Shown here one piece after another: positions 3,242 to 35,408 of a DNA stretch of 38,724 bases. Numbering within the stretch: the stretch's first letter is position 1; each line of letters begins with the position of its first letter. Source of the DNA: a virus; IMG/VR virus record IMGVR_UViG_3300044682_000028, positions 1 through 38,724 of that record; one strand, written 5' to 3'. The translations under genes were made by a program, and so were the position numbers. The notes below the pieces were generated by a model that saw only the letters and a list, made by a program, of their open reading frames with translations, ran no database searches and had not been told where the DNA came from.

Positions 3242-4006
3242 ATGGCGTCGACTCCGTACACGGTCCTAAATCTCATCTCGCGTTCCATGCGCCTCGTCGG
3301 CGCGCTCAATGTCGGCGATGCTCCGACCGCGGCAGAATTGCAGGATGGGCTCGAAGCACTGAATGCGATGGTCGACGCCTGGGCGAATCAGCGGCTCTTG
3401 ATCTACACGACGCAGCGCCTCCTGTTCGGTCTCAACAGCGGGCAACAGAGCTACGAAATTGGACCCAACGCGGTCGACTGGGTGACGGCGCGGCCGGATT
3501 ATCTGGAGGGCGCCGGCCTGGTGTATGGCGTCGGCGGCGTCAATTTCGAGCGGCCGGTCGAGATTTACACCTGGGACGAATGGCAGAATCAACGCTCGAA
3601 ACAGCTCTCGACGTCCGTTGTCACTGCGCTGATTTATGACTACGGCTTTTCGAATCCGAACTCGAGCGCGACGGATACGGGCTCGGGTACGGTCTTCGTG
3701 TGGCCGGTTCCGAACGCCACGGGCCTGCTCGCGCTCTATCTTCCGCTCGCGGTGCAACAATTCACGAGCGCCAATCAGACGGTCTCGCTTCCGCCTGGCT
3801 ACCGGCGCGCGCTGCAATACAATCTCGCGGTCGAATTCTCGCCTGAATTCGACACGGAGCCCTCGCCCGTGGTGCTCGCGATCGCCGAGTCTTCGCTCGA
3901 CTACATCAAACGCAACAATGTGCGCCTGAACGCGCTGCGCTGTGATCCGGGGATGGCGCGGCATCAACGCGGCGGGCAGGCTTTCAATCTCTACGTAGGC
4001 GAATAA
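3242..4006 (+). CDS. P22 gp4-like tail accessory / head completion protein
   Basis: This 254-residue protein matches the P22 tail accessory factor gp4 family, which binds under the portal after packaging and begins to close the head. The N-terminal signature is visible: LISRSMRLVGALNVGDAP, then AELQDGLEALNAMVDAW and a QRLLFGLNSGQQSYEIG strand region. The end (PPGYRRALQYNLAVEFSPEF) is also typical. It is longer than P22 gp4 (166 residues), as many relatives are. ATG 3242 has AAGG about eight bases upstream. Its TAA overlaps the next ATG by one base (4006), implying translational coupling to gp10. In P22, gp4 also has weak muramidase activity; nothing here tests that. Confidence 0.9.
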   Translation: MASTPYTVLNLISRSMRLVGALNVGDAPTAAELQDGLEALNAMVDAWANQRLLIYTTQRLLFGLNSGQQSYEIGPNAVDWVTARPDYLEGAGLVYGVGGVNFERPVEIYTWDEWQNQRSKQLSTSVVTALIYDYGFSNPNSSATDTGSGTVFVWPVPNATGLLALYLPLAVQQFTSANQTVSLPPGYRRALQYNLAVEFSPEFDTEPSPVVLAIAESSLDYIKRNNVRLNALRCDPGMARHQRGGQAFNLYVGE

Positions 4007-5250
4007 TGGCGGCTTTCGAAAACTTCATCGGCGGCAGTTATCAAGGGCGATCGCAGCAACAGGACGCGGAGCGCTCGGCGAACCAGTACGTGGAACCGGC
4101 GGGCGCCGCGGGCGCGAACGCCAAAGGCGCGGCCGTGCTGCTCTCGAAACCGGGCCTGGCGACGTTCGCGACGTTCGCGGCCGGCGCGGTCGTGAGCGAA
4201 TGCGCGCTCAACGGCCGCGGCTTTGCCGTGGTACAGCTCGGCGCCTCCAATTACTTTTATGAAGTGCTGGCGAGTGGGCTCTCGATCAACTACGGCACGC
4301 TGCCGGGCGATCGCCGGTCGCAAATGTGTGCGAGTCAGAATCAAATCGTGATTTTGTCGGGCGGGCTCGGCTTCTGCTTTACGCTCGCGACGAATACGCT
4401 GGCGCTCATCACGTCGGGCGCTTTTCCGATTGGCGCGGTGAAGGTGGGCAATCTCGACGGCTACTTCGTCGTCCTCGAGCCGAATTCGCAAGTCTTCGCG
4501 ATCTCGTCTCTGAACGATGGAACCACCTGGAACGCGCTGGATTACGGCGACGCCGAAGGCGAACCGGGCAACATCACGACGTTTATTGTGGACCATCGGC
4601 AAATCTGGTTTTTTGGGAACAATCACGCCGAAATTTACTACGACTCGGGCGCGGCGAATTTTCCGCTGGCGCGGCTCGAGGGCGCATTTATGGAACAGGG
4701 CGCGGGCGTGTGTATCGATGGGCTTTTCCAGTGCGATAACACCATCTTTTGGCTCGGCGGCAACCGTGACGGGCAGGGGATTTTCTGGCGGGCGAACGGC
4801 TATCAACCGACGCGCATTTCGACGCCGGCGATTGAGTACCTGGTCGAACAATGGCCGACGCTCGCCGATGTGTCGGGCTACTGTTACCAGGAATCGGGGC
4901 ACACCTTCGCGCGCTGGGATGCGCCTAGCGCGAACGGCGGGCTCGGCGCTTCGCTGCTCTTCGATGTGCTCTCGGGCTTCTGGCACGAGCGCTTTTTTTG
5001 GAACGCTTCGCTCGGGCTCGAGCTGGCCGACTTAGCGCGCTCGCACATGTTCGTCTTCGGTAAACATCTCGTCGGCGATTGGCGTTCGGGCACAATCTAC
5101 GAGCAAAGCATGCAATACAATTCGGACGCCGGCGCGCAAATTCGGCGCATCCGCGCGGCGCCGGATCTGTCGAACGGCGGCAAGTACGTCAAGTACGCCG
5201 AATTTCGGTTGCTGTGCGATGTGGGCGTGGGCCGGGCGGTGGGGAGTTAA
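4006..5250 (+). CDS. P22 gp10-like DNA stabilisation protein, lacking its C-terminal part
   Basis: This 414-residue protein is the tail hub or plug of the gp10 family, which binds gp4 and keeps packaged DNA inside. Family features are FENFIGGSYQGRS near the start, repeated beta-propeller-like strands, FGNNHAEIYYDSG, and the late block FGKHLVGDWRSGTIYEQS followed by IRRIRAAPDLSN. Relatives continue after a VGVG-type segment with a SxDGGRxW strand block. Here the gene stops right at that point. The missing block is found at the end of the next gene (5250-6476). The two parts add up to about 480 residues, near P22 gp10 (472). The TAA and the next ATG overlap by one base in the -1 frame. Confidence 0.88.
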   Translation: MAAFENFIGGSYQGRSQQQDAERSANQYVEPAGAAGANAKGAAVLLSKPGLATFATFAAGAVVSECALNGRGFAVVQLGASNYFYEVLASGLSINYGTLPGDRRSQMCASQNQIVILSGGLGFCFTLATNTLALITSGAFPIGAVKVGNLDGYFVVLEPNSQVFAISSLNDGTTWNALDYGDAEGEPGNITTFIVDHRQIWFFGNNHAEIYYDSGAANFPLARLEGAFMEQGAGVCIDGLFQCDNTIFWLGGNRDGQGIFWRANGYQPTRISTPAIEYLVEQWPTLADVSGYCYQESGHTFARWDAPSANGGLGASLLFDVLSGFWHERFFWNASLGLELADLARSHMFVFGKHLVGDWRSGTIYEQSMQYNSDAGAQIRRIRAAPDLSNGGKYVKYAEFRLLCDVGVGRAVGS

Positions 5251-6476
5251 TGCCGACTCTTCAATACCGCGGCGTCATCGCGTTGACGTTTAGCCGCTTC
5301 GCGCCGATCACGCTCTCGGGTACGTGGGTGGGTGATCCCTCGGGCGTCGGCGCGCTCTCGCAATCGTATGACCTCATTACTCAAGCGCTCTCCTTTGGCG
5401 GCGCGGCCGGCTACGTGGCGCCGTGGTCCTTCTTCATGCTGCTCAATGGGAAGTACAACTTCGTCACCATCTCGAATTCTCAGTCGGGCGGCAACACCGC
5501 GGGCAACGCGCTCACAGGTTTGCTCATCGCCGGGCACCTGATAACGGGCGGCATTACATCGGCCGGGCTCGTCGTTGTGAACGATACGCTGCTCCCGGCG
5601 ACGCTCACGAATGCGACGATCGCGCTCAATAACCTACCGATGACGACGGGCTGCGGGACGATCACGGGCGTTGTTGACACCGGCTATCCTATGCCGGTTA
5701 CACTCGGGCCCGGCGATCAGTCGTACGGCCTCCCTTTTCAGAATTTCACGGACGGCTACAATCGGCTCGCGCTCTACACGCCGGGCGGCGTCGCGCATGC
5801 GCCGGCGCTTTTCGGCGCGCTCTACGACAGGCAGATGTTCAACGCTTGCGACGTGATCAACGGCATCAATTACACGTACTGCAGCCAGATCGGCTCGAAC
5901 AATTTGCAGGTTTGGCGCTTCAATCCGGCGAGTGGCACGATTACGTTTTCCACCTATAACGAAGCTATCCTCGTTTCCGCGCCGGGCACGGGTATCAGCG
6001 AGTTTGACAAGCCGACACCGTACGGCTTTCAATTTAGGGACGCAACGCTCGGGCTCTGCCTGTGCGATATGTCGATGCAGAACTACTGGCAGCTGCAAGT
6101 GAGCTCGCCCGTGTCGTACCTCGATCAAATGACTTTCGACGCGGGCGGGATTGCCTACGCTTTCGGCAACGATGGCAATGCTTATTGGTCCGGCGTGCCC
6201 TACTTGAGCGCGATCGTCGGCGCGGGCGGAATTCCGGCAGGCGGCGCGCCGGTCACGGGCACGGGCGTTACTCCGCAAATGATCTTGCAAGTGTCGAACG
6301 ACGGCGGGCGTTCCTGGGGAAATGAACGCACCGCGTCCCTCGGCGCCCTCGGCGCGACGCATACGCTGGTCCGCTGGCGGCGCCTGGGGCGCTCGCGCAA
6401 TCGCTGCTTTCGGACGATCTGTACTGAGAACGTGAACGTCGCGCTGGTCGCGGCCGATCTGGATAGCTCGCGCTAA
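5250..6476 (+). CDS. Unknown domain fused to the displaced C-terminal block of gp10
   Basis: This 408-residue protein has two parts. Residues 1 to about 340 are an all-beta-looking domain rich in Gly, Thr and Ala, with several Cys (for example in NACDVINGINYTYC and LGLCLCDMS); I do not recognise it. The last ~65 residues (ILQVSNDGGRSWGNERTAS, then LVRWRRLGRSRNRCFR) are the block that normally ends gp10-family proteins. So this gene carries both an insert and the tail of its neighbour. It starts at ATG 5250, overlapping the stop of gp10 (TAATG), without its own ribosome site. Reinitiation is the simplest reading. A -1 frameshift joining the two would also restore one polypeptide. The insert may form an extra tail lobe in the place where P22 has its needle gene 26. 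Confidence 0.85.
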   Translation: MPTLQYRGVIALTFSRFAPITLSGTWVGDPSGVGALSQSYDLITQALSFGGAAGYVAPWSFFMLLNGKYNFVTISNSQSGGNTAGNALTGLLIAGHLITGGITSAGLVVVNDTLLPATLTNATIALNNLPMTTGCGTITGVVDTGYPMPVTLGPGDQSYGLPFQNFTDGYNRLALYTPGGVAHAPALFGALYDRQMFNACDVINGINYTYCSQIGSNNLQVWRFNPASGTITFSTYNEAILVSAPGTGISEFDKPTPYGFQFRDATLGLCLCDMSMQNYWQLQVSSPVSYLDQMTFDAGGIAYAFGNDGNAYWSGVPYLSAIVGAGGIPAGGAPVTGTGVTPQMILQVSNDGGRSWGNERTASLGALGATHTLVRWRRLGRSRNRCFRTICTENVNVALVAADLDSSR

Positions 6477-8936
6477 ATGGCTTCCGCGCTCGGCAAACCG
6501 GCCTATTCGGCGCCGCTGGTCCTACCGTCCGGCGTGGTGTCTCCCACGTGGCTGCGCTGGTTCAACGAACTGTTTGCGGCCGGGCAAGCGTTGCAGGCGG
6601 CGCAAAGCGCGCTCGCGTCACTCCAAGCAACGCTCGCGACGGATACCGCGAACATCAAAGCGTTACAAACGGCGATGCTGGCGGCGCAAAGCGCGATCGC
6701 GGCCTCGGCCGCGGCGCTGGCGCTCGTGCAAACGACTCTCACCTCGTTAGGCAACACGGTCGCGCAACACACCCAACAAATCGCGGCGTTAAGCGCGGGC
6801 GTCGCGGCGCTGCCCTCCGCGCTTTATTTCAACGTGAAAGATTATGCGGCGACGGGCAACGGCGCGGCCGATGATAGCGCGGCGATTCTCGCGGCCGTCA
6901 ACGCGGCGAATGCGGCGGGCGGCGGCTGCGTTTTCTTTCCGGCCGGCACTTACTCAACAGGCACCATTCCGCTGTATAGCTTCGTGAGCTTCGAGGGCGC
7001 CGCGGAAGAGTCGAGCATTCTGAAGCTCAAACCGGGCACGAATGCGGATCTCTTTCAAGGCACCATCGCCGGCTATACCAACGGGGTGAACGGGTACACC
7101 GGCACAACCGCGCTGGTGAACCTGGCGGCGCCGGCCGGCACGGGCTCAAACACCGGGATAACGGGCTTTGCGATTCGCAACCTCACGCTCGATGGCAACG
7201 TGTCAAATCAAACCGGGTACGGCGCCGGCCTGCGGCTCTATGGCTACGGTTATCGGCTCGCGAACCTCTACATCCGCAACTTCTACGGCGACGGCATCTA
7301 TGCCGACTGGAACCCCAACACTTCTTCGTTTTCGCTCTCGCCAAATCAGCTCGAGTCGCAATGGCTCAACCTGAAAATTCACGATATCGGCTACTCGCTG
7401 GCAAGTTCCGTGTCGATGGGTATTCGATTGGCGGGCGGCACAGATAACCAACTGTCCAACATCATCATTTACAAAACCGGGTCGCACGGCATGCAAATCG
7501 GCCCGAATGCTCAAGCGGCGCAATGCACCTCGCTGCATGTGTGGGGCGTCGCGAACGGAAACAACGCGGCCGGCATCTTGTGCGAAGCAAACGGCTGTAT
7601 GTTCGTGAATTGTGAAGTCGAGGGCTCGGACGTCTGCGAAGTCGCGCTGATTTGCGCGCAAGTCAACTGGTACGGGGGCAAGGTGTTCGGCGGTGGCACG
7701 CCGGGCACGGCCTACACGGGCTTTCAACTGGGTCAGCTCGCCGGCGATTTGCCGTTTGTCGGCTCGGCCAATCAAACGACGCCGGGCTCGCTCGCAAATC
7801 CCCCCACGGCTGCGGCCGGCACCATCTACACGTGTTCGGCTTCGATCATCGAAACCTACCTCGAGAACACTTACGGCGGCGCGCTGAATCCGCGCTCGGA
7901 AAACTCGAACATCATCAACGTGGTGTGCAACCAAACCGGGACCACGGCGATGCGCGTGTCGCCGGTCTCGGCCGCAACGCTCAACACCAACGACGCCTTT
8001 TCTGTGCGCGTCAAAGGCATCACGAGCGATGGCAGTTTCGGCACCGCGGGCGGCTTCCAGACAGGCAATTCGGGGAACCCCGCGTTCGCAATCTATGATG
8101 CGTCGGGGCACGCGCTCTTTCTCATCAATGGCGCCGGCCGGCCGTTCGGCGCGGGGCTCTTTACCGTGCCTGGAAGCGACATAAACGGCTATGTCGACTG
8201 GTTTTTCGCGACGAAAACCTATCAAATCACGCATACGGGGTTCTTTCAGTCGCTCGCCTCGGGCTTTGCGGTCGGCTCGAACGTGGCGGCGACGGTCGCA
8301 ACCGCCAGTATTCCGGCGCCCTGGCAGCTCGGCGCCGGCGCAACGGTGGTCGTCTACAATTCGGCCGCGGCGCCTCCCTACTCGCCGAACCCGCAAACGC
8401 CGTACTCGTACGGCAAGGTGCGCGTCAACGCGGCCTCGGCCGTCACGGGCCTCATTCTGCAAGCGGGCTCGATCGACGGCACGGAAGTCACGCTGTGCAA
8501 CGAATCGGCCTACCCGCTGACGTTCGCGGCGACGGGCTCGAACGTCGCGCTCGCCTCCTGGCAAATTCCCGCGGGCTCGGCGCGTAAGGTCATGTGGAAC
8601 GGCTACACCGCGCTGTGGTATCCCGAAGCGGCGCTCGCGACGACGGGCGGCGGCTACACCGTGCAACCGCAACGCACCATTACCGCGAGTACGACGGCGC
8701 TGGCGACGGATGCAATGCTCTTTGCAAATGCGGCCTCCGGCGCGATCACGGTCACGCTCCCGGCGACTCCCTCGACCAATCAAATTGTGGAAGTCAAGAA
8801 AATCGACTCAAGCGCGAACGCGGTCACGCTGACGCCGGCGACGGGCACGCTTGACGGCGCGGCGAGCGTGTCGTGGTCTCTCTCGCTGCTGGCGCTCGAA
8901 GTGCAATTCGACGGCGCGAACTGGTGGATTATATGA
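6477..8936 (+). CDS. Tail spike with pectate-lyase-type beta-helix
   Basis: This 819-residue protein is the likely receptor-binding or depolymerising spike. Residues 1-35 may attach to the tail. About 35-115 is Ala/Gln/Leu-rich and helical, a probable trimeric coiled coil. From about 120 the sequence FNVKDYAATGNGAADDSAAI followed by GGCVFFPAGTYS is the hallmark start of the pectate-lyase-3 family, and repeating beta-helix coils follow to about 550. The C-terminal 100 residues (from GGGYTVQPQRTITAS) are Thr/Ala-rich beta strands ending in NWWII, a probable trimerisation cap. ATG 6477 directly follows the preceding TAA. Whether it cleaves a polysaccharide or only binds cannot be told from sequence. 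Its last bases overlap the next gene. Confidence 0.9.
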   Translation: MASALGKPAYSAPLVLPSGVVSPTWLRWFNELFAAGQALQAAQSALASLQATLATDTANIKALQTAMLAAQSAIAASAAALALVQTTLTSLGNTVAQHTQQIAALSAGVAALPSALYFNVKDYAATGNGAADDSAAILAAVNAANAAGGGCVFFPAGTYSTGTIPLYSFVSFEGAAEESSILKLKPGTNADLFQGTIAGYTNGVNGYTGTTALVNLAAPAGTGSNTGITGFAIRNLTLDGNVSNQTGYGAGLRLYGYGYRLANLYIRNFYGDGIYADWNPNTSSFSLSPNQLESQWLNLKIHDIGYSLASSVSMGIRLAGGTDNQLSNIIIYKTGSHGMQIGPNAQAAQCTSLHVWGVANGNNAAGILCEANGCMFVNCEVEGSDVCEVALICAQVNWYGGKVFGGGTPGTAYTGFQLGQLAGDLPFVGSANQTTPGSLANPPTAAAGTIYTCSASIIETYLENTYGGALNPRSENSNIINVVCNQTGTTAMRVSPVSAATLNTNDAFSVRVKGITSDGSFGTAGGFQTGNSGNPAFAIYDASGHALFLINGAGRPFGAGLFTVPGSDINGYVDWFFATKTYQITHTGFFQSLASGFAVGSNVAATVATASIPAPWQLGAGATVVVYNSAAAPPYSPNPQTPYSYGKVRVNAASAVTGLILQAGSIDGTEVTLCNESAYPLTFAATGSNVALASWQIPAGSARKVMWNGYTALWYPEAALATTGGGYTVQPQRTITASTTALATDAMLFANAASGAITVTLPATPSTNQIVEVKKIDSSANAVTLTPATGTLDGAASVSWSLSLLALEVQFDGANWWII

Positions 8937-10119: not shown

Positions 10120-10491
10120 ATGTCTACTCGCATTCAGCAAACCCAGCTCCTCACGAGCGCACTGTTTTTGCAACAACTGCAAGGCTCGCTCTACGCCGCG
10201 GCAATTCCCGTGTTTACTGAAGGCGCCGGCGTCACCAATCACGCGAATCGGCTAGCGTTCGCGCGCGGCATTGTGGCGAGTGGCGCGCAACAAGCGGCTT
10301 TCTTTGCGCCGGCTGTCTTGAGTCAAGCGGGCGTCTTGTCGGATCTGACGGCCAACGTCGTCGGGGCAAGTGGAACGGTGATTCAAGACGCTAACTGCGA
10401 CGCGGCGGTCGGCGCGCTCTTCAACGTTTACGCGACTTGGTACGCGGCCGGCATCTCGACGTTTACGACACTGCCACTACTCGGAACGTGA
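10120..10491 (+). CDS. Hypothetical protein between fibre and gp14 genes
   Basis: This 123-residue protein is Ala/Gln-rich and probably helical, with QQTQLLTSALFLQQLQGSLYAAAIPVF near the start. It has no family I recognise. ATG 10120 is used here; a TTG at 10111 overlapping the previous stop is an alternative that adds three residues. Its stop overlaps the GTG of the next gene by three bases, so it belongs to the same coupled group. The position between tail fibre genes and ejection genes suggests a small virion or tail protein. That is inference only. Confidence 0.7.
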   Translation: MSTRIQQTQLLTSALFLQQLQGSLYAAAIPVFTEGAGVTNHANRLAFARGIVASGAQQAAFFAPAVLSQAGVLSDLTANVVGASGTVIQDANCDAAVGALFNVYATWYAAGISTFTTLPLLGT

Positions 10492-10955
10492 TTCGGTTAG
10501 AGCGGACGCTCGACCTCGAGCTCGTGCGGCAAATCATGACGCATGCGGCGCTCTATCCGTTTCTGGCAGACGATTTTTACCCGGCCTCAGAAGACTTTCG
10601 GCCGAATGCAACCGCCTCGATCTGGTACTTGCTGGTCTTCGATGGCGACGAGCTCCTCGGGCTCTTTATGAGTCATCCGATTAACGCGCTGGCCTGGGAA
10701 GTCCACGTCGCGCTCTATCCGGTCGCCTGGGGGCGCCGGGCGAGGGCGGCCGGTAAAGCCTTTCTGTGCTGGCTCTGGCAGATGACGCCGGCGCGCGTCG
10801 TCGTCGGCTTCGTGCCGACGTCGAATCCGCTAGCGGTCGCCTATGCCAAAGGGCTCGGCCTGCGGGAAGTGGGGCGCGTCCCGCTCTGCTATCAGCGTCA
10901 GTTTCAGCTCTTCGACATTGTCATTCTGTGCCGTGAACGGCCGGCAATTTCTTAA
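10488..10955 (+). CDS. GNAT-fold protein in the position of P22 gp14
   Basis: This 155-residue protein has the look of a GNAT acetyltransferase-like fold: an N-terminal helix (ELVRQIMTHAALYPFLADDF), strands around WYLLVFDGDELLGLF, then WEVHVALYPVAWGRRARAAGKAFLCWLW and a final NPLAVAYAKGLGLREVGRVP block. The usual acetyl-CoA loop is only partly matched. It lies immediately before the gp7-like gene, exactly where P22 has gene 14, whose product belongs to a similar small family used in virion assembly. GTG 10488 overlaps the previous stop. An assembly role for the ejection proteins is inferred from this synteny. Catalysis is not shown. Confidence 0.75.
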   Translation: MIRLERTLDLELVRQIMTHAALYPFLADDFYPASEDFRPNATASIWYLLVFDGDELLGLFMSHPINALAWEVHVALYPVAWGRRARAAGKAFLCWLWQMTPARVVVGFVPTSNPLAVAYAKGLGLREVGRVPLCYQRQFQLFDIVILCRERPAIS

Positions 10956-30007: not shown

Positions 30008-30695
30008 CGCCGAAGCGGAGCGGCTGCGAAGGACTGGTCGACTCATTGATAGCTACTTTCCCAACACCGGAGAACATCGGCGAGAACGGTACGTCAAACA
30101 TCTGGACTTTTTCAAGGCCGGCGCGACGCACCGAGAACGCCTGTTTATGGCCGGCAATCGCGTCGGCAAGAGTGACACGGGCTGCTACGAAGACACGCTG
30201 CATCTCACCGGCGACTATCCGCACTGGTGGGAAGGCCGGCGCTTTGCGTGTCCGGTAGAGTGCTGGATTGCGGGCGAGACCAATCTCACCGTGCGCGACA
30301 TTCTCCAGAAGAAGCTGCTCGGCGCCTGGGGCTCATTTGGCACGGGGATGATTCCGCGCGACGCGATCGTGCATTGGACGGCCAAGCGCGGCGTTGCGGA
30401 TTCGGTGGATACCGTTTTCGTGCGGTCTCTCAATGGTGGGGTCTCGAGCTTATCGTTCAAGAGTTACGCGGAAGGGCGCCAAAACTTTCAGGGCACGGCG
30501 AAACACGTCATTCACTTCGACGAAGAGCCCAGTCAAGAAACGTATATCGAGGCTTTGCTGCGCACCATGATCGTGCCCGGCTGTGACACGGGCGGCTTGA
30601 TGATGGTCACATTTACACCCATAGAAGGTTGGTCGACATTGATAGAAGACTTCCTCGCCGGCGTCGAGTCTCAGAACGCCGCGCCGAGTGAATAG
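29952..30695 (+). CDS. terL: Terminase large subunit, ATPase half (split gene)
   Basis: This 247-residue protein is only the N-terminal motor domain of a large terminase, the ATPase that pumps DNA into the head. It shows the Walker A motif at 67-74 (AGNRVGKS), Walker B at about 185-192 (HVIHFDEE) and the coupling motif at 220-223 (TFTP). A KHLDFFKAGATHRERLF block precedes the P-loop, as in relatives. A stop follows at the point where other terminases enter a linker to the nuclease. The nuclease half is encoded alone 4 kb away (34686-35408); together they give 487 residues, a full-length terminase. The start ATG 29952 has GAAG next to it and lies inside terS. Confidence 0.92.
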   Translation: MSSLTSSGSPQNLISLLRDAEAERLRRTGRLIDSYFPNTGEHRRERYVKHLDFFKAGATHRERLFMAGNRVGKSDTGCYEDTLHLTGDYPHWWEGRRFACPVECWIAGETNLTVRDILQKKLLGAWGSFGTGMIPRDAIVHWTAKRGVADSVDTVFVRSLNGGVSSLSFKSYAEGRQNFQGTAKHVIHFDEEPSQETYIEALLRTMIVPGCDTGGLMMVTFTPIEGWSTLIEDFLAGVESQNAAPSE

Positions 30696-34483: not shown

Positions 34484-34689
34484 GCGATACGAACGCGGAC
34501 GCCATTCTCGAAGAGAGTTTGCTCGACTACATCGCGGAGTGCGATCGCGAAACGGCCGAAATGATGCGGACGCAAAGCGGCCACTACGCGCCGGGCTATA
34601 GCGATCAAACCGCGAATCACAGGCCCTGGACGCCGGAACGCTATGCGCGCCGGCAGGCGGCGCGCGACGAAAAAAAGCGCGGGGCGTGA
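34480..34689 (+). CDS. Small hypothetical protein before the terminase nuclease half
   Basis: This 69-residue protein is acidic at the start (DTNADAILEESLLDYIAECD) and basic at the end (RPWTPERYARRQAARDEKKR). It starts at GTG 34480 overlapping the previous stop, and its TGA overlaps the GTG of the nuclease gene. It is the last gene of the insert. No family is known. The double overlaps suggest tight translational coupling of lysis-like genes to the nuclease. Confidence 0.65.
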   Translation: MSDTNADAILEESLLDYIAECDRETAEMMRTQSGHYAPGYSDQTANHRPWTPERYARRQAARDEKKRGA

Positions 34690-35408
34690 GCAAATACGTC
34701 GTGCAGGCGGGCTGGGCGGACGCGCCGCATTTGTCGCCGGCCGTCTGCGAGGAGCTGCTCGCCAGTATCCCGTTTCACCAGCGCGAAGCGCGCATGAATG
34801 GCACGCCGGCGCTCGGCGACGGCAAGATCTACCAGGTGCCCGAAGAGGACTTCCGCATCGCGCCGTTCGTGATTCCGCCTCACTGGAAACAAGCCTACGG
34901 GCTCGATGTCGGCATCAATCGCACCGCGGCCGTGTTCGGCGCGCTCGACGAAGACTCAGACATCCTCTATCTCCACTCGCTGCATTATGCGGCCGACGCG
35001 ATCGCAGCGATTCATGCGGAAGCGATCAAGGCGCGCGGCGCCTGGATTCCCGGCGTGATTGATCCGTCCGCACGCGGGCGCAATCCGGTCGACGGCGAAC
35101 GCCTCATCGAAGTGTATGAACGGCTCGGCCTGCATCTCTCGCTGGCCGACAATTCCGTCTCGGCCGGCATCTACGCCGTGACGCAACGGCTCGTCTCGGG
35201 CCGGCTGAAGGTGTTCGCCTCGCTCTCCGAGTGGTTCGGCGAGTATCGCTTGTATCGGCGCGTCAAGGGCAAAATCGTCAAGGAAAAAGATCACGCCATG
35301 GACGCGACGCGCTACCTCGAGATGAGCGGGCTCGCAATCGCCAAAGCGGCGCCGGCGCCTCCCTCCTGGGACCAGCGGCGCACGGGCTCGAGTCGCTGGA
35401 GCGGCTAA
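34686..35408 (+). CDS. terL: Terminase large subunit, nuclease half (split gene)
   Basis: This 240-residue protein is the RNase-H/RuvC-fold nuclease half of a large terminase, which cuts packaged DNA. The first 65 residues (KYVVQAGWADAPHLSPAVCE, then SIPFHQREARMNGTPALGDG) are the linker region that in other phages is continuous with the ATPase. The metal-binding Asp residues are in place: Asp74 (YGLDVGINRT), Asp126 (GVIDPSARGR) and Asp202/Asp206 (EKDHAMDATRYL). The first residues after the GTG at 34686 are already homologous, so the break is at the domain boundary. The two halves must work as separate chains or be joined in some way. It overlaps the previous stop by three bases. Confidence 0.92.
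   Translation: MSKYVVQAGWADAPHLSPAVCEELLASIPFHQREARMNGTPALGDGKIYQVPEEDFRIAPFVIPPHWKQAYGLDVGINRTAAVFGALDEDSDILYLHSLHYAADAIAAIHAEAIKARGAWIPGVIDPSARGRNPVDGERLIEVYERLGLHLSLADNSVSAGIYAVTQRLVSGRLKVFASLSEWFGEYRLYRRVKGKIVKEKDHAMDATRYLEMSGLAIAKAAPAPPSWDQRRTGSSRWSG

Follow-up and report, generated by a model that had tools for sequence, protein, structure and literature searches.

A gp10-like tail hub gene in two reading frames, with a large domain between its parts

The known hubs of PHROG 578 (Hc3), i.e. P22 gp10, Sf6 gp8 and the Pam1 and Pan3 hubs, are single chains of about 440-500 residues. In a viral sequence of 38,724 nucleotides (IMG/VR record IMGVR_UViG_3300044682_000028, here called the window) the corresponding positions are instead divided between two predicted chains, with a 338-residue domain between the parts. 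This raises the question whether the hub is made as two polypeptides, or whether the division comes from an error in the sequence, a programmed frameshift, a separate role of the second protein or decay of the gene. A first-pass annotation of the window had proposed a precisely placed split of gp10, with its last block ending the next protein behind an unrecognised domain. The features of the locus are listed in Table 1.

Table 1. Features of the hub locus and the genes on either side of it.
Feature	Position	Strand	Evidence
Upstream gene, head-tail adaptor (gp4-like slot)	3242..4006	+	PF24175 SU10_adaptor E 1.3e-8; phrog_12985 E 1.6e-40; phrog_637 head-tail adaptor E 1.1e-5
ORF1, gp10/Hc3 hub protein without the C-terminal block, 414 aa	4006..5250	+	phrog_578 E 2.7e-68
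Conserved G-V-G codons, start of the insertion loop	5224..5232	+	Alignments of relatives; loop in the L027 model
Shine-Dalgarno-like GGGGAG, 3 nt 5' of the ORF2 ATG	5241..5246	+	Duplex with anti-SD -10.3 kcal/mol
TAATG, overlap of ORF1 stop and ORF2 start	5248..5252	+	Sequence
ORF2, insert domain and gp10 C-terminal block, 408 aa	5250..6476	+	Sequence; phrog_578 match at the C-terminus
Insert (cargo) domain, ORF2 residues 1-338	5250..6263	+	No relatives; codon usage and GC3 as in neighbouring genes
gp10 C-terminal block (C-block), ORF2 residues 339-408, Asp-box SNDGGRSW	6264..6473	+	phrog_578 profile 396-470; C-profile; L027 model
Tailspike-like gene, downstream	6477..8936	+	PF12708 E 9.2e-12; PHROG tail-spike matches

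Two open reading frames that tile one gp10

The phrog_578 profile (head closure Hc3, the P22 gp10 family) matches ORF1 over positions 8-400 of 486, and residues 336-404 of ORF2 over positions 396-467 (E 1.8e-9). Searched across the whole window it gives exactly two matches, 4024-5238 (profile 8-401) and 6255-6470 (profile 396-470), i.e. the pieces tile one gp10 and no family positions are missing. A C-block profile built for this analysis matches ORF2 with E 7e-28, and 19 of the 26 strongly conserved positions of the block are retained. Judged by these profiles, ORF1 and the C-block of ORF2 are shown to be homologous to a one-chain gp10 along its full length. The homology extends to the hubs of P22, Sf6, Pam1 and Pan3, where the gene order after the adaptor is also that of the window. 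The proposed split at a precise point is borne out, and the TAATG junction and the limits of both ORFs were confirmed in the sequence.

The propeller and N-terminal homology of PHROG 578 is found in ORF1, and the C-terminal platform block with its Asp-box lies directly downstream in ORF2. By sequence, however, the two are not in one polypeptide: a TAA at 5248-5250 ends ORF1, and ORF2 has its own start in the -1 frame relative to ORF1 and runs to a stop at 6474-6476. By homology, ORF1 contains the N-terminal platform strands, the beta-propeller and the first C-terminal platform strands, and ends five residues past the conserved GVG. Relatives do not end where the 414-residue protein ends, they continue in the same chain into the SxDGGxTW block, and the C-terminus of ORF2 aligns with gp10 C-termini by both phrog_578 and the C-block profile.

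Some details of the first-pass annotation change. Its estimate of about 340 residues for the insert is close to the measured 338 or so, while the block, given as about 65, measures about 70. The block was described as moved, but it is still at its normal place downstream and is only set apart by the insert. ORF2 was also placed in the slot of the P22 needle gene, which is not supported: neither ORF2 nor its insert matches a Pfam or PHROG family of the needle (P22 gp26), and a division of the hub gene is enough to explain the position of ORF2 after ORF1.

The N-terminus of the downstream tailspike-like protein is similar to that of the downstream gene in L001 (L001 8058-8402), the closest relative found. 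Further along the tail module there is a small DUF2824/GNAT-like gene (10437-10955, +; PF11039 E 1.4e-7) that overlaps the end of the preceding ORF. The large terminase subunit (TerL) is in two parts: the Terminase_6N profile is matched over positions 1-159 at 30141-30683 (+) and over 164-213 at 34698-34847 (+). The second part spans 34686-35408 (+), with Terminase_6C after the Terminase_6N piece, and the gap of about 4 kb between the parts holds several unannotated ORFs. A search for close relatives of this phage with its major capsid protein returned none.

The break in the fold and the insertion loop of the relatives

To place the break in the fold we used a structure model of the gp10 of a one-chain relative, L027, built with 40 sequences (mean pLDDT 89); the propeller and platform fold is seen in the model of that relative. 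A single-sequence prediction of ORF2 has a pLDDT of 28 and carries no meaning. The L027 model aligns end to end with the known hubs, with Z-scores of 38.7 for P22 gp10 (residues 1-471), 39.2 for Pan3, 35.8 for Sf6 and within 35-39 for Pam1. Unrelated propellers align only over about 42-360, so the break falls in the platform part and not in the propeller itself. Only one stretch of the model, 396-403 (VGLQSGQG), falls below a pLDDT of 50; it links strands 383-393 and 407-413. In the alignment to L027, ORF1 stops within the counterpart of this loop, on whose far side the C-block of ORF2 begins. The model thus puts the break in the platform domain, which faces the adaptor, at a beta-hairpin tip predicted to be disordered. 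In T7 and SU10 the platform is formed by N- and C-terminal segments and faces and contacts the adaptor (PMC6702177; PMC9509320). The counterpart of the C-block in the L027 model is the last five platform strands, 407-472, and since ORF1 would lack these strands it is unlikely to work on its own.

Profiles of the N-part and the C-block were searched over six-frame translations of all fetched loci, and the 292 loci sampled gave 240 distinct sequences. Both gp10 parts are in one open frame in all 240, so no second genome with a split gp10 was found among them and, by sequence, the chain break of the window appears to be unique. In five loci (L044, L105, L110, L112, L282) the full pair is absent, at or near a contig end or in N-masked sequence, and these were not counted as splits. 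The GenBank phage relatives that were inspected are all single CDSs of about 1.2-1.5 kb. L001 is one chain, with 65% identity over the propeller; its loop at the site of the break is short (GVGLDGGAVPGSDPQ), and it carries a different insert near the N-terminus. A literature search, with subscription journals mostly outside it, found nothing relevant on split gp10 or nozzle proteins.

The loop between the gp10 parts varies in length among the 240 relatives: at most 27 residues in 123, 28-54 in 84, 60-80 in 18, 81-200 in twelve and at least 300 in three. Inserts of at least 28 residues are therefore present in 117 of 240. The alignments show the hairpin loop after GVG to be a frequent site of in-frame insertion, judging from the short repeats, glycine-rich domain and esterase found there. 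L072 (4553-5455) carries an adhesin-like, glycine-rich domain of 300 residues (phrog_4474 E 1.9e-21; PF21722 below cut-off). In L169 (3921-5000) and L186 (3924-5000) the loop holds an alpha/beta hydrolase of 360 residues, with PF20434 (E 7e-17) and PF07859 both well above cut-off and the esterase family phrog_3341 at E 1.8e-13, i.e. by sequence a putative enzyme placed on the tail hub. About half of the relatives bear inserts in this loop, 28-360 residues long, so the insertion in the window is not unusual in kind; it is the chain break that stands out. The cargos of L169/L186, L072, L057 and L022 are in the same hairpin loop as that of the window, with the same flanking GVG and PQxML, but all are in frame and in one chain. 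The window insert shows no resemblance to any insert of the relatives, the best match having an E of 0.02 in a very small database. The window locus is a large cargo insertion with a chain break at the start of the insert.

Many of the loops of 36-73 residues contain repeats such as LLTESGxxITTESGDYLL, and an L(T)TESGDxL-like motif occurs one to three times in L026, L062, L101, L030 and others. By analogy with the SU10 dock loop, which uses three tryptophans (PMC9509320), the motif might form a hairpin on which a trimeric fibre docks. Inserts of 190-250 residues are also found elsewhere, in or before the propeller, in L001 (about 6175-6750) and in L169/L195 (after residue ~130), so that cargo is not confined to a single loop of gp10.

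Translation signals and competing explanations

The GGGGAG upstream of the ORF2 ATG forms the strongest duplex with the 16S 3' end among the 11 starts tested in the window. Its value of -10.3 kcal/mol is reached by none of the 53 other ATGs in 4010-8930 and by none of 178 first ATGs after GVG in the relatives. Sliding windows over ORF1 and ORF2 reach it 8 times in 2440, the number expected from the overlapping frames of one site. The G-richness is partly due to Gly/Val codons at the end of ORF1. At the junction a frame-specific codon score switches from the frame of ORF1 to that of ORF2. There is no slippery heptamer (X-XXY-YYZ, in frame) at the junction, and the RNA fold there is no better than that of shuffles (z -0.47). 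A group I or II intron as the interruption was rejected, as no intron RNA matched in Rfam: nothing in the window reaches the gathering score, and 4950-6500 has only sub-threshold chance matches. No tRNA was found, and no direct repeats of at least 8 nt flank the insertion. Tight junctions are ordinary in this operon, since the adaptor TAA and the ORF1 ATG also overlap as TAATG at 4006, and ORF2 and the next gene meet as TAA-ATG at 6477. In this one metagenomic record, the switch in codon score, the strong Shine-Dalgarno site, the lack of a heptamer and of an intron, the ordinary RNA fold and the tight neighbouring junctions make two polypeptides more likely than an indel in the sequence or a programmed frameshift.

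A sequencing or assembly indel near the G-run at 5241-5244 would mean that the true gene encodes a single chain whose loop insert has 338 residues. The ORF2 frame is open upstream to 5064, so that a single indel could part the frames; inserts of comparable size are found in one-chain hubs (L072, L169, L186) and the window is the sole split case. Yet the indel would need to lie no more than a few codons from the insert boundary and at the same time produce a TAATG beside the strongest ribosome-binding site of the segment, and no break is seen in any of the 240 relatives, whose data are of the same kind. We regard such an error as unlikely. Phages employ frameshifts in tail genes, and in a programmed -1 frameshift most ribosomes would stop at 5250 while some slip to make the full fusion, giving virions with a short and a cargo-bearing gp10. 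The -1 frame of ORF2 is open upstream, and the GTG-GGG codons would permit a single-tRNA slip to GGG. The absent heptamer and the fold count against this, the Shine-Dalgarno site and ATG make it unnecessary, and the short product alone would be without the platform strands, which together leave a frameshift improbable.

The two frames could also have separate roles, ORF2 being a tail appendage that captured the gp10 C-block as a docking tag and ORF1 a naturally short hub, or one accompanied by a second full gp10 elsewhere. ORF2 does carry start signals of its own and is not covalently joined to ORF1. On the other hand the record holds a single set of phrog_578 positions, ORF1 would miss the last five platform strands common to all relatives, and ORF2 comes directly after ORF1, the order expected of one gene; we find this reading somewhat harder still to accept. 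The least credible of all is that a defective phage recently acquired the break as a loss-of-function mutation. The interrupted TerL of the same record would fit such decay, but the conserved positions of the C-block are largely kept, the insert frame is open with local codon usage, and the hub gene has no other stop or frameshift.

The insert domain and a probable two-chain hub

The domain that the first-pass annotation could not recognise has no relative in any collection searched. Searches with tblastn found none among phages at E 10 and only chance matches among plasmids, and none was found in viral contigs (ORF2 peptides), Pfam, PHROGs, about 570 bacterial genomes or all fetched loci. Against PDB sequences the best match, residues 289-339 with sulfite oxidases at E 0.05, was taken as chance. 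A duplicated gp10 propeller was rejected as its origin, there being no match with the gp10 N-profile at full sensitivity. Charged residues are scarce in the insert (about 7% K+R+D+E), and Gly, Thr, Ser, Asn and aromatic residues are abundant. Its GC (0.61) and GC3 (0.79) equal those of its neighbours and its codon usage is local, so its composition does not mark it as a recent foreign acquisition. Relatives have esterase and glycine-rich cargos in this loop, and by analogy we lean towards a role in host-surface binding or an enzymatic one.

The likely reading of the locus is a gp10-like hub made as two polypeptides, where ORF2 completes the platform of ORF1 and the insert is mounted on the hub. 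Ribosomes would complete ORF1 and then re-initiate, or initiate afresh, at 5250. The C-block of ORF2 would give the platform domain of ORF1 its missing beta-strands in trans, and the ORF1-ORF2 pair would form the hub subunit docked on the adaptor ring; if P22 is a guide, there would be six such pairs. The insert domain would then be held non-covalently outside the tail hub, beside the tailspikes, where its probable role, by analogy, is to bind or process a molecule of the host surface. The cargo likely entered a one-chain gp10 first, with fission at the insert boundary afterwards. More specifically, we are inclined, though only slightly, to see a tail hub that is one chain in all sampled relatives and has here turned into an obligate subunit of two chains. 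In it a cargo protein translated on its own would donate about five beta-strands to the adaptor-docking platform, and a non-covalent surface domain would result.

The nozzle proteins T7 gp12 and SU10 gp17 likewise have a propeller, and a platform built from N- and C-terminal segments, and a fibre docks on their outer surface near the propeller end (PMC6702177, PMC9509320). Unlike the window hub they are one chain, with nozzle and dock domains inserted elsewhere, and their match to the L027 model is distant and structural only (SU10 Z 25-26; T7 9jyz Foldseek E 1e-9). The muzzle protein gp44 of PhicrAss001 (Z 26.8 to the L027 model) combines, as in the window, a gp10-like framework with a very large extra domain, for which contact with the cell surface has been proposed (PMC10172136). 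In contrast to the window, this insert is in an Ig domain within the propeller, in one chain of about 1360 residues.

Cargo insertion into the gp10 loop is recurrent, though it has apparently drawn little notice, and the window adds a new example of it. The platform loop of gp10 is a neglected site, and host-interaction functions may sit on the hub and not only on the tailspikes. If the two-polypeptide reading is true, an essential channel-lining tail protein that is cut at a display loop still serves as the hub, which would be a natural split-protein design.
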